Assembly: GCA_902571375.1 (NCBI GenBank)
Contig: CACGBP010000001.1
Coordinates: 46,001-110,000, forward strand
Reading direction: 5' to 3'
Source: an uncultured Pelagibacteraceae bacterium
GTDB lineage: Bacteria > Pseudomonadota > Alphaproteobacteria > Pelagibacterales > Pelagibacteraceae
DNA length: 64,000 bases
The translations under genes were made by a program, and so were the position numbers. The notes below the pieces were generated by a model that saw only the letters and a list, made by a program, of their open reading frames with translations, ran no database searches and had not been told where the DNA came from. Each line of letters opens with the position of its first letter. The stretch's first letter is position 1. Of this stretch, positions 17,499 through 21,318 are shown one piece after another.

Positions 17499-17573
17499 GC
17501 CTCGGTAGCTCAGGAGTAGAGCAGAGCCCTGAAAAGGCTTGTGTCGGAGGTGCGAATCCTTCCCGAGGCACCA
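17499..17573 (+). tRNA. tRNA-Phe (GAA), CCA encoded
   Basis: GCCTCGG...GAGCC-CTGAAAA-GGCTT...CCGAGGC-ACCA. Confidence 0.95.
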
Positions 17574-17917: not shown

Positions 17918-17956
17918 AGGGTTGAATAAATCAAATTTTTGTCTAAAAGACTGTTC

Positions 17957-18058
17957 ATGATTAAAAATGAAACCAACTTTATAAATTATTTTAGTACTCA
18001 AGAAGCAATTTTTAGAGGAAATAATAAAGGTGTGCATTTTCATTTCCATGCTGGCTAA
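17957..18058 (+). CDS. 33-aa His-rich-ended small ORF (candidate leader peptide or microprotein)
   Basis: Translation MIKNETNFINYFSTQEAIFRGNNKGVHFHFHAG*; isolated between the cspA terminator and tRNA-His/hisS. Confidence 0.45.
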   Translation: MIKNETNFINYFSTQEAIFRGNNKGVHFHFHAG

Positions 18059-18065
18059 GGCTAGC
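18050..18065 (+). promoter_or_regulatory. hairpin enclosing the stop codon of the 33-aa ORF, followed by T-rich tract (candidate attenuator)
   Basis: GCTGGC-TAAG-GCTAGC (6 bp incl. one G-U) then TTTAAATCTTTT. Confidence 0.4.
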
Positions 18066-18126: not shown

Positions 18127-18200
18127 GCCTTGGTGGTGAAATAGTATCACGTCGGTTTGTGGATCCGAAATCGTAGGGGCAGAACCTACCCAAGGTACCA
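18127..18200 (+). tRNA. tRNA-His (GTG), no encoded G-1, A73, CCA encoded
   Basis: GCCTTGG-TG-GTGA...TCAC-G-TCGGT-TTGTGGA-TCCGA...CCTAC-CCAAGGT-ACCA; base preceding position 1 is A. Confidence 0.93.
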
Positions 18201-18204
18201 AAAA

Positions 18205-19599
18205 ATGGATAAAGAAAATAAATTAATTCCTGGATTACCTTCAGGATTTGAAGATCGTTGGGATAAAAAACTTCTTCTCAAAAAAAAGCTTTTAAAAGCT
18301 ATTGAGAAAAATTTTATAAAATTTGGAGCAGTAGCTCTGGAAACCCCTTCGTTTGAAATTAGTGAAAATATAGGATCTTTTTTGGCAGAAGATGATACTA
18401 ATCCTATGTCTGATGTATTCTCATTTCAAGATGGAGAAAAAAGTATCACTCTTAGGTATGATCTTTCAAGCCCACTAGCTAGATTTGTTGCTCAAAATAA
18501 TCAAGAGCTTCCATCAATTTTTAAAAGATATGCTATTCAAAATGTTTTTAGAAATGAAAAGGCTGGTAATGGAAGGTATAGAGAATTTATGCAAGCAGAT
18601 TTTGATATAGTAGGAAATGTTAATTCTGCTCAAGCAAATGCAGAACTTTGTAATTTAATATCGAGCACTTTGTTAGATTGTGGTTTAAAAAAAGATCAAT
18701 TTACAATTAATGTAAGTAATAGAAAAATAGTTCAAGGATTAATTGATGATTTAGAAATATCAGAAGTTAAACAATTAAAAGTGATTAGGGCAATTGATAA
18801 ATTAGATAAACCAGGTTTTGGTTTAAAAGGTGTTGAAGATCTTCTTAAAAAAGAGAGAAAAGATAAAAGTGGTGCGATCACCAAGGGTGCAGATTTAAAT
18901 GATGAGCAAGCTTCTCAAATACTCAATTTTCTTAAAATTAAAGATTTAAAAGAATTAAAAGAAACTTTAAAGAATCCTTTATCTCAAGAAGGTATAAAAG
19001 AATTAGAGCAAGTATTTGAAGTATTGGGTTACAGTTCAAATTTAAATCAGGTCAAAACTAGTTTTACAATTGTTAGAGGATTGGCCTATTATTCAGATTT
19101 CATTGTTGAAACAAATCTAAATTTTAAAGTTACAAATAATAAAGGTAAAGAGGTTGATATAGGCAGTATTTGTTCTGGAGGAGCCTATGCAAAATTAATC
19201 TCGAGATTTAAAGGTGTAGATATTCCAGGTACTGGAATTAGTTTCGGAGTTGATCGTTTGTTATTTGCTTTGATGCAATTGGATCAAATTAAAGTGGATA
19301 GTCAAAAACCAGTTTTAGTTTGTGTAATGGATGAAAAATACCTTAAAAATTACTATGAAATTTTAGACCTATTAAGAAATAACAACATAAATGCTGAAAT
19401 TTTTTTAGATACAAAGAAAAATTTGGGTAAGCAACTAACTTTAGCAAATAAACGTGAGTTAGATGTAGCAATAATATGTGGTGAAAATGAATTTAAAGAA
19501 AATACGGTTACTGTAAAAAATCTTAAAGGTGTTAAGGGTGAAAACAACAAAACATTTCCAAAAGCAAATTTAATTGATGAAGTCAAAAAACTTATCTGA
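18205..19599 (+). CDS. hisS: histidyl-tRNA synthetase (start corrected from 18157)
   Basis: LRYDLSSPLARFVA, motif 2 FRNEKAGNGRYREFMQADFDIVG, GLAYYSDFIVE, GISFGVDRLL; upstream part of listed ORF lies in tRNA-His. Confidence 0.96.
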   Translation: MDKENKLIPGLPSGFEDRWDKKLLLKKKLLKAIEKNFIKFGAVALETPSFEISENIGSFLAEDDTNPMSDVFSFQDGEKSITLRYDLSSPLARFVAQNNQELPSIFKRYAIQNVFRNEKAGNGRYREFMQADFDIVGNVNSAQANAELCNLISSTLLDCGLKKDQFTINVSNRKIVQGLIDDLEISEVKQLKVIRAIDKLDKPGFGLKGVEDLLKKERKDKSGAITKGADLNDEQASQILNFLKIKDLKELKETLKNPLSQEGIKELEQVFEVLGYSSNLNQVKTSFTIVRGLAYYSDFIVETNLNFKVTNNKGKEVDIGSICSGGAYAKLISRFKGVDIPGTGISFGVDRLLFALMQLDQIKVDSQKPVLVCVMDEKYLKNYYEILDLLRNNNINAEIFLDTKKNLGKQLTLANKRELDVAIICGENEFKENTVTVKNLKGVKGENNKTFPKANLIDEVKKLI

Positions 19600-20629
19600 A
19601 AAAATCCTTAGGTCAGTAAAATCTAATGGTTTTAAATATATTGATTTACCCTCAGTAATTGAGGCAAATCATATCGTTCAAAGATCAGGAGAAAATTTTA
19701 GAAAGTTTATCTTCTCTTTCACTGATCAGAATGGAAGTGAGTTATGTCTTAGACCAGATTTAACAATTGTATCTTGTTTAAGATATCTAGAAAATGATTT
19801 AAAGGGTAAAGAAAAAATTTTCTATAGTGGTCAAGCTTATAGAAAGTCCCAAAATAAAAAAGATTCAATAATAAGAGATCAAGTTGGTTTTGAGATTATA
19901 GGATCACAAGATGAAAAAAATGATGACAAAGAAATAATAAACACTTCTCTAAAATCACTAAAAAACTTTAAATATTCATCAGGTACCCTTACTGTTGGTA
20001 ATGTAGAAATTTTTAATCTTTTAATTTCTAAATTAGATATACCAAAACGATGGAAATTAAGACTTTCAAGGCATTTTTGGAGAGAAATCTATTTTAATGA
20101 TTTGCTACAAAGACTAGAAACAAATTCTGATGTAGACCCAACAATTGTTGAAGTTGATAAAAAACGTTATCTAAAAATGTTAAAAGACGATCAATCATAT
20201 ATTATTGCAAGCAGAACAATAAAAGAAATTTTAGAACGATTTGATAAAAAGATTAACGATCCAAGAAGAGCAAGCAAGGGTAGAAATATTTCAAAAATTA
20301 TCAGAGAATTTTTAAGAATTAAGTGCCCAATAGATAAAGCTTCAAAAGAACTAAATAAGTTTTTTAAGAAATACAAAATTAATCTTATTGTTGATCAAAA
20401 ATATTTTCCAATTTCTAAAAATAAAGTTTCTAAACTTAATGTAATTTTCTCTACTGCTTTTGGAAGACAGCTAGAATATTATACGGGGATGGTTTTTAAG
20501 ATAGATATCAAATCAAAATCAAAAATTGTTAATTGCTGTAATGGGGGTCGTTATGACAAATTGATCTCTGATCTTGGTTCAAAAAAACAAACACCAGCTG
20601 TTGGGGCTGCTCTAAATCTTAATTATTAA
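19574..20629 (+). CDS. hisZ: ATP phosphoribosyltransferase regulatory subunit
   Basis: HisRS-like fold: LCLRPDLTIVSCLRYL, YSGQAYRKSQ, RQLEYYTGMVFKI, CNGGRYDKLISDLG; between hisS and hisG. Confidence 0.9.
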   Translation: MMKSKNLSEKILRSVKSNGFKYIDLPSVIEANHIVQRSGENFRKFIFSFTDQNGSELCLRPDLTIVSCLRYLENDLKGKEKIFYSGQAYRKSQNKKDSIIRDQVGFEIIGSQDEKNDDKEIINTSLKSLKNFKYSSGTLTVGNVEIFNLLISKLDIPKRWKLRLSRHFWREIYFNDLLQRLETNSDVDPTIVEVDKKRYLKMLKDDQSYIIASRTIKEILERFDKKINDPRRASKGRNISKIIREFLRIKCPIDKASKELNKFFKKYKINLIVDQKYFPISKNKVSKLNVIFSTAFGRQLEYYTGMVFKIDIKSKSKIVNCCNGGRYDKLISDLGSKKQTPAVGAALNLNY

Positions 20630-20631
20630 TT

Positions 20632-21318
20632 ATGAAAAACATAATAAATATAGGAATACCAAGTAAAGGAAGATTAAGAAAAGATGTTTTAAAAATTTTT
20701 AGTAAAAAAAAATTAAAGCTTATTTCTGAGAGAGGAGAGAGAGATTTGATAGGATCTATTCAAAATAAATCGAATATTAAAATCTTATATTTGCATGCAA
20801 GAGAAATTATTGAAAGATTAGGGGATGGTTCCTTAGATATAGGTTTCTCAGGTTTAGATTTACTAAAAGAAAGTGAAATAACTATTCAAAATAAAATTAA
20901 TGTTATTAAAAAACTTAATTTTGGAAAAGCAAAATTAGTTGTAGCGATCCCAGATCCATGGATTGATGTTCAAACGATAGCTGATCTTGAAGAAATTGCT
21001 TTTGAATTTAGAGATAAAAAGAAAAAAAGATTAAGAGTTGCAACCAAATACCCTAATTTAACTAGAGAATTTTTGTTTTCAAAAGGTGTTACTCAATTTA
21101 GATTGGTTAATAGTTTGGGAGCGACTGAAGCATATCCTTTTACTGGTTCAGCAGAAATTATTACTGATATTACATCTACAGGTGAAACTCTTAAAGCAAA
21201 TAACTTGCGTATTTTGAAAGATGGAGAGATTTTAAAGTCACAAGCCTGTATTTTTGCTTCAAAGAAAAATAGTAAGAAAAAGGGATTAAAGAACCTGATT
21301 AAACTATTTTATAAGTAA
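20632..21318 (+). CDS. hisG: ATP phosphoribosyltransferase catalytic subunit
   Basis: IGIPSKGRLRKDVL, DGSLDIGFSGLDLL, RVATKYPNLTREFL, GATEAYPFTGSAEIITDITSTGETL. Confidence 0.96.
   Translation: MKNIINIGIPSKGRLRKDVLKIFSKKKLKLISERGERDLIGSIQNKSNIKILYLHAREIIERLGDGSLDIGFSGLDLLKESEITIQNKINVIKKLNFGKAKLVVAIPDPWIDVQTIADLEEIAFEFRDKKKKRLRVATKYPNLTREFLFSKGVTQFRLVNSLGATEAYPFTGSAEIITDITSTGETLKANNLRILKDGEILKSQACIFASKKNSKKKGLKNLIKLFYK

Follow-up and report, generated by a model that had tools for sequence, protein, structure and literature searches.

A conserved histidine leader ORF and hairpin before a probable tRNA-His–hisS–hisZ–hisG operon of Pelagibacteraceae

In the Pelagibacteraceae genomes sampled, the gene of tRNA-His lies a few nucleotides before hisS, and both are preceded by a short histidine-rich leader ORF with a hairpin at its end. 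These parts, their order and their conservation were read directly from the genomes compared. On the basis of this comparative sequence evidence, we propose with a probability of about 0.7 that promoter, leader, hairpin, tRNA-His, hisS, hisZ and hisG form one operon, whose expression as a whole would respond to histidine supply. SAR11 bacteria are among the most abundant on Earth and are known for their sparse regulation. With a family-wide histidine leader before an operon of tRNA, synthetase and biosynthesis genes, they would have a compact feedback loop that puts the tRNA gene under a sensor of its own charging. The features of the locus in the window, which is the whole stretch of 64,000 nucleotides of DNA that was analysed, are the following:

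17922..17949, forward strand: promoter-like TTGAAT-N16-TAAAAG, ending 7 nt upstream of the ATG of the leader (assigned by a loose consensus and not by mapping of the start)
17957..18058, forward strand: histidine leader ORF, MIKNETNFINYFSTQEAIFRGNNKGVHFHFHAG and stop, ending in GVHFHFHAG, probably leaderless
18050..18065, forward strand: hairpin GCTGGC-TAAG-GCTAGC of 6 bp, directly after the last His codon, with the leader stop in its loop
18100..18126, forward strand: A/T-rich stretch before tRNA-His, candidate second promoter or processing site
18127..18200, forward strand: tRNA-His (GTG) with G1-T72, A73 and encoded CCA; D-loop AATAGTA, T-loop GGCAGAA
18201..18204, forward strand: AAAA spacer between the CCA of tRNA-His and the hisS ATG
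18205..19599, forward strand: hisS, histidyl-tRNA synthetase (Pfam tRNA-synt_His, E 9.5e-23, and HGTP_anticodon)
19577..20629, forward strand: hisZ-like ORF, a HisRS paralogue with the catalytic domain only (Pfam tRNA-synt_His, E 1.2e-31)
20632..21318, forward strand: hisG, ATP phosphoribosyltransferase, short form (Pfam HisG, E 2.1e-38)

The comparison was based on HisRS searches in the family, the genus and the order, which yielded 97 loci from the family of the window and 20 from a sister family. It must be noted that all the comparative counts refer to related genomes and not to independent events. Each of the 95 family regions (200 nt each) had a short His-rich ORF in the corresponding position. 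At least three His within 8 residues were found in 79/95 of these regions, compared with 0.6% of shuffles and 0/95 antisense regions, and the densest 8 residues contained a mean of 3.23 His against 0.39 in order-1 shuffles. The family leaders usually end in THRHHFHAG or THRNCFHSQ. The two His codons were both used (CAT:CAC, 203:94), as expected for conservation at the level of the amino acid. The leader thus looks like a translated short ORF rich in codons for the regulated amino acid, and it is located upstream of charging and synthesis genes (hisS, hisZ and hisG). In addition, hisZ followed hisS in 77/77 loci, and in the window the hisZ-like ORF overlaps hisS by 23 nt.

The His leader was also detected in 78/78 named loci and in 20/20 loci of the sister family, whose leaders have 11 residues with the pattern M...HHHYHI followed by the stop (e.g., MFKFKHHHYHI). 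Given that hisS is preceded by a His leader in the sister family too, with no tRNA there, the leader goes with hisS. Six other, more distant Alphaproteobacteria had no His leader before hisS. In the sister-family loci L106-L115 and L136-L145, a stem of about 9 bp comes after the leader, and the C-rich ACCCCT/ACCCCCT is also conserved there. With respect to transcription, a TTGNNN-N15..17-TWNNNN element was located 5-10 nt before the ATG of 77/84 leader ORFs, versus 6.8% when every ATG of the window is counted. Since this promoter-like element is so close to the start codon, the leader is probably translated from a leaderless transcript.

RNAalifold gave no consensus structure for the region from leader to tRNA on a loose MAFFT alignment; therefore, the stems were scored locus by locus. 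A stem of 6-8 bp was present at all 84 leaders, and the observed median stem score was matched by 1.4% of the shuffles. The sequences of the stems varied with the pairing kept (GCTGGC/GCTAGC, GCTAAGC/GCTTAGC, ATAGCC/GGCTAT, ACGCAAGC/GCTTGCGT). No more than 2 nt separated the last His codon from the start of the stem in 71/84 loci, a position of the control codons from which a stalled ribosome would alter the folding of the RNA. A classical intrinsic terminator behind the leader was not supported, as too few T follow the hairpin (a mean of 3.8 T in 8 nt, with at least 5 T in 26/84 loci, that is, no conserved U-tract) and the terminator scan of the window called none. Neither was an alternative antiterminator pairing identified at these leaders. 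The locus does not resemble a T-box: near it, only tRNAs matched Rfam families at gathering thresholds, and the sub-threshold matches were weak and to unrelated families.

The hisL and pheM-pheST systems of E. coli are ribosome-mediated leader-peptide attenuators. In bacilli, His leader peptides are located before hisS and hisZ (PMC2965389). The SAR11 locus shares with all of them a short ORF with cognate control codons beside an RNA hairpin, and, as in leader-peptide attenuators, leader and hairpin lie upstream of the genes concerned, here hisS, hisZ and hisG. It differs from them in that the gene of the sensed tRNA stands between the leader and the synthetase, in that the leader ORF is probably leaderless, and in that no U-tract terminator or antiterminator could be shown. 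In attention to the above, leader and hairpin would work like a leader-peptide attenuator, and we do not file them as a classical one because there is no conserved U-tract, no terminator was called and no antiterminator was identified.

From this arrangement, a mode of switching, with its sign and a role for the hairpin, can be inferred as follows. With little charged tRNAHis, the ribosome would stall on the His codons of the leader and shield the 5' arm of the hairpin with its footprint; the hairpin would then fail to form and the operon would be expressed. With plenty of charged tRNAHis, the ribosome would reach the stop codon, which lies within the hairpin or shortly past it, and leave; the hairpin would then form and expression would fall. 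The charging that is sensed would be that of tRNAHis, a product of the same operon.

Two previous surveys dealt with the same clade as the window, SAR11. One predicted 11 regulatory uORFs and reported an unannotated tRNA in HIMB5 (PMC6429828), and the other, on intergenic RNAs, listed regions after removal of those with tRNAs (PMC2704228). The main texts of both do not name hisS or histidine; this statement covers the main texts, and overlap with their supplementary tables is possible. In particular, the table of the 11 uORFs in PMC6429828 lies outside its main text, and it is possible that a hisS uORF was reported earlier there.

Regarding the tRNA gene, reading of the sequence confirmed each coordinate of the preliminary description: the CCA occupies 18198-18200, the hisS ATG is at 18205 after the 4-nt AAAA gap, and an AAGG motif at 18192-18195 belongs to the 3' acceptor strand. 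Rfam matched the tRNA-His with 47 bits (cut-off, 29), and the full cloverleaf is its minimum-energy structure. ARAGORN did not call a tRNA-His at 18127-18200, probably owing to the odd D-loop and T-loop. The gene was the sole tRNA-His among the 32 tRNAs found in the assembly, which is 86% complete. When 30 genomes, of which many are complete, were searched with a looser pattern, no second tRNA-His emerged, and the remaining tRNA-like matches resembled the variable arms of tRNA-Leu(GAG). The possibility that the gene is a pseudo-tRNA or a tRNA mimic, and that a normal tRNA-His exists elsewhere, was rejected, as no second tRNA-His was found in its own or in related genomes.

SAR11 is reported to share the alphaproteobacterial codivergence of tRNAHis and HisRS (PMC3937112). 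Bases 18126 and 18197 (position 73) are both A; hence, the tRNA-His of the window has A73 and no G at -1, like the G-1-less alphaproteobacterial pair described there. The acceptor stems of the relatives, in the loci listed, also end with G1-T72 followed by A73. The passages of PMC3937112 considered here describe neither a tRNA-His–hisS linkage nor swapped tRNA bodies nor a leader.

The distance from the CCA to the ATG was 4 nt in 62 of the 96 readable family loci, 5 nt in 24, 6 nt in 6, 3 nt in 1 and 27-29 nt in 3, with ATG as the hisS start codon in all 96. Among the 80 named Pelagibacteraceae loci, the gap was 4 nt in 78 and 5 nt in 2. The order and the tight gap first noticed in the window are kept across the family (3-6 nt in 93/96 loci), and the two sets together, which may share organisms, gave 3-6 nt in 173/176 loci. 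Judging from the gap distribution in the 96 family loci and in 80/80 named loci, the juxtaposition is not due to chance, and in the genomes sampled the adjacency is a family trait. In the sister family, tRNA-His does not adjoin hisS; a tandem of tRNA-Phe and tRNA-His is found about 1.4 kb or more upstream, separated from hisS by another gene in the loci read. In the wider class, 27 Alphaproteobacteria had a candidate tRNA-His shortly before an ATG, and in 0/27 was this the ATG of hisS, which was located elsewhere; longer gaps would be missed in this count. Some loci deviated in detail. The tRNA-His adjoining hisS has no encoded CCA in L123, L124 and L125, for which the gap was counted from the same position, and the T-loop of L124 is ATCGTGG. 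The loci with 27-29 nt are L098, L099 and L121; in two of them the insert starts with CAAGGCG and the tRNA acceptor is GCGGTAG.

The short gap by itself is ordinary streamlining, since in this genome ORFs also start 3-10 nt after other tRNAs: Gln (3 nt), Leu(CAA) (4 nt), Leu(TAA) (6 nt), Pro (8 nt, before NDUS4), Glu (9 nt, before a GIY-YIG gene) and Leu(TAG) (10 nt, before the trigger factor gene). The whole arrangement might be explained in the same way, with minimal intergenic space, a tRNA transcribed from its own promoter just upstream and a leader of little importance. In this regard, a -10-like element (TATAA/TAWAAW) was found just before the tRNA in 90/96 different regions of relatives, against 14% of random positions; in the window there is only a weaker one, GATAATAA, at about 18109. 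A second promoter at this site would bypass the leader, and the element counts against the operon model. It must be considered that a TTG-type -35 box accompanied the -10-like element in 0/96 regions, which argues against streamlining as the explanation, and that the latter leaves unexplained both the conserved His leader with its hairpin and the His leader that precedes hisS in the sister family with no tRNA there. We therefore regard streamlining as the sole cause as unlikely, and retain the operon under control of the leader as the preferred reading.

The position of the tRNA also raises the question of how hisS is translated. The first conserved HisRS residues are encoded about 12 codons past ATG 18205, with no other start codon between. 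This start is sound. The in-frame TTG at 18157, inside the tRNA, was considered as an ancestral hisS start and discarded because the gap varies between 3, 4, 5 and 6 nt in relatives and the frame is not kept. The preliminary description took AAGG for a Shine-Dalgarno (SD) sequence that the folded acceptor stem would mask, so that maturation of the tRNA would compete with translation of HisRS. The motif is indeed in the stem and the tRNA folds stably. Nevertheless, AAGG preceded hisS in 12/96 family loci, where it accompanied particular acceptor sequences, and 81/96 had no SD-like 4-mer just before hisS. Moreover, GGAG, GAGG or AGGA preceded 3 of the 59 ORFs of the window (5.1%, with start codons picked by rule, a few of which may be wrong) versus 5.7% of random positions. 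Since SD 4-mers are not above random and AAGG is rarely kept, there is no SD to hide, and a masked SD is highly improbable as an explanation. The coupling of tRNA-His and HisRS which had been suggested on this basis is still likely, and the conserved upstream His leader is better evidence for it. The 3' end of the 16S rRNA has CCTCC, yet SD 4-mers are not enriched before the ORF starts within positions 1-60300 of the window.

A promoter or terminator of its own for hisS would not fit into the 4-nt gap. A near-leaderless hisS mRNA released by 3' processing of the tRNA is plausible, and it would be the most likely template for SD-less translation from the AUG 4 nt after the CCA, as for other genes abutting tRNAs in this streamlined genome. 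This is probably the same mode of translation as in the rest of the genome. The tRNA-His–hisS pair would be a simple case for addressing the translation of SD-less genes located just a few nucleotides downstream of a tRNA.

The fusion of a cognate tRNA to the mRNA of its synthetase, at 3-6 nt in nearly all loci, would also suit an autoregulation in which HisRS, bound to the tRNA part of the tRNA-hisS precursor, prevents the processing of this RNA or obstructs the nearby AUG. Excess enzyme would then shut off its own synthesis, in addition to the effect of the leader. The retention of the G1-T72 and A73 acceptor end while the tRNA body changes points in the same direction; the three loci with gaps of 27-29 nt, and the other tRNAs that abut unrelated genes likewise, point against it. 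We consider such autoregulation improbable. The same low expectation applies to the fused tRNA as a control element of its own, in which HisRS or the charging of the attached tRNA would decide on processing and hisS translation. If true, a single RNA would serve as substrate, as sensor and as message, and the His leader would add a second level of control.

The tRNA-His genes of the family grouped by their bodies into nine clusters, which share 51-78% identity with one another; G1-T72 and A73 are conserved. On a HisRS tree (FastTree, 82 HisRS sequences) the tRNA-His type changes at least 11 times, and the 14-row clade that contains the window includes three types. Consequently, a single cassette of tRNA and HisRS always inherited together was not supported. 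In L029-L105, L116-L135 and L181-L260, tRNA-His bodies have been repeatedly exchanged inside one genus, with HisRS about 90% identical or more.

Finally, D-loop position 18 and T-loop position 55 covaried in the tRNAs read, with either G18 and T55 or A18 and G55; a few other combinations in the automatic count were, judged by eye, apparent misplacements of the arms by 1-2 bases by ARAGORN. This covariation suggests that the unusual loops reflect a functional variant rather than decay. A limited literature search gave no match for the A18-G55 combination. It is present in tRNA-His (18127-18200) and tRNA-Phe (17499-17573) of the window, in tRNA-Val(GAC) of the same genome (L005) and in several tRNA-His of relatives (L032, L033, L038, L063, L083 and L125). 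A further exchange, at positions 54-58 (A54-T58), is present in tRNA-Val(GAC) and in the tRNA-His of type T4 in relatives; the tRNA-His of the window has G54 and G58.
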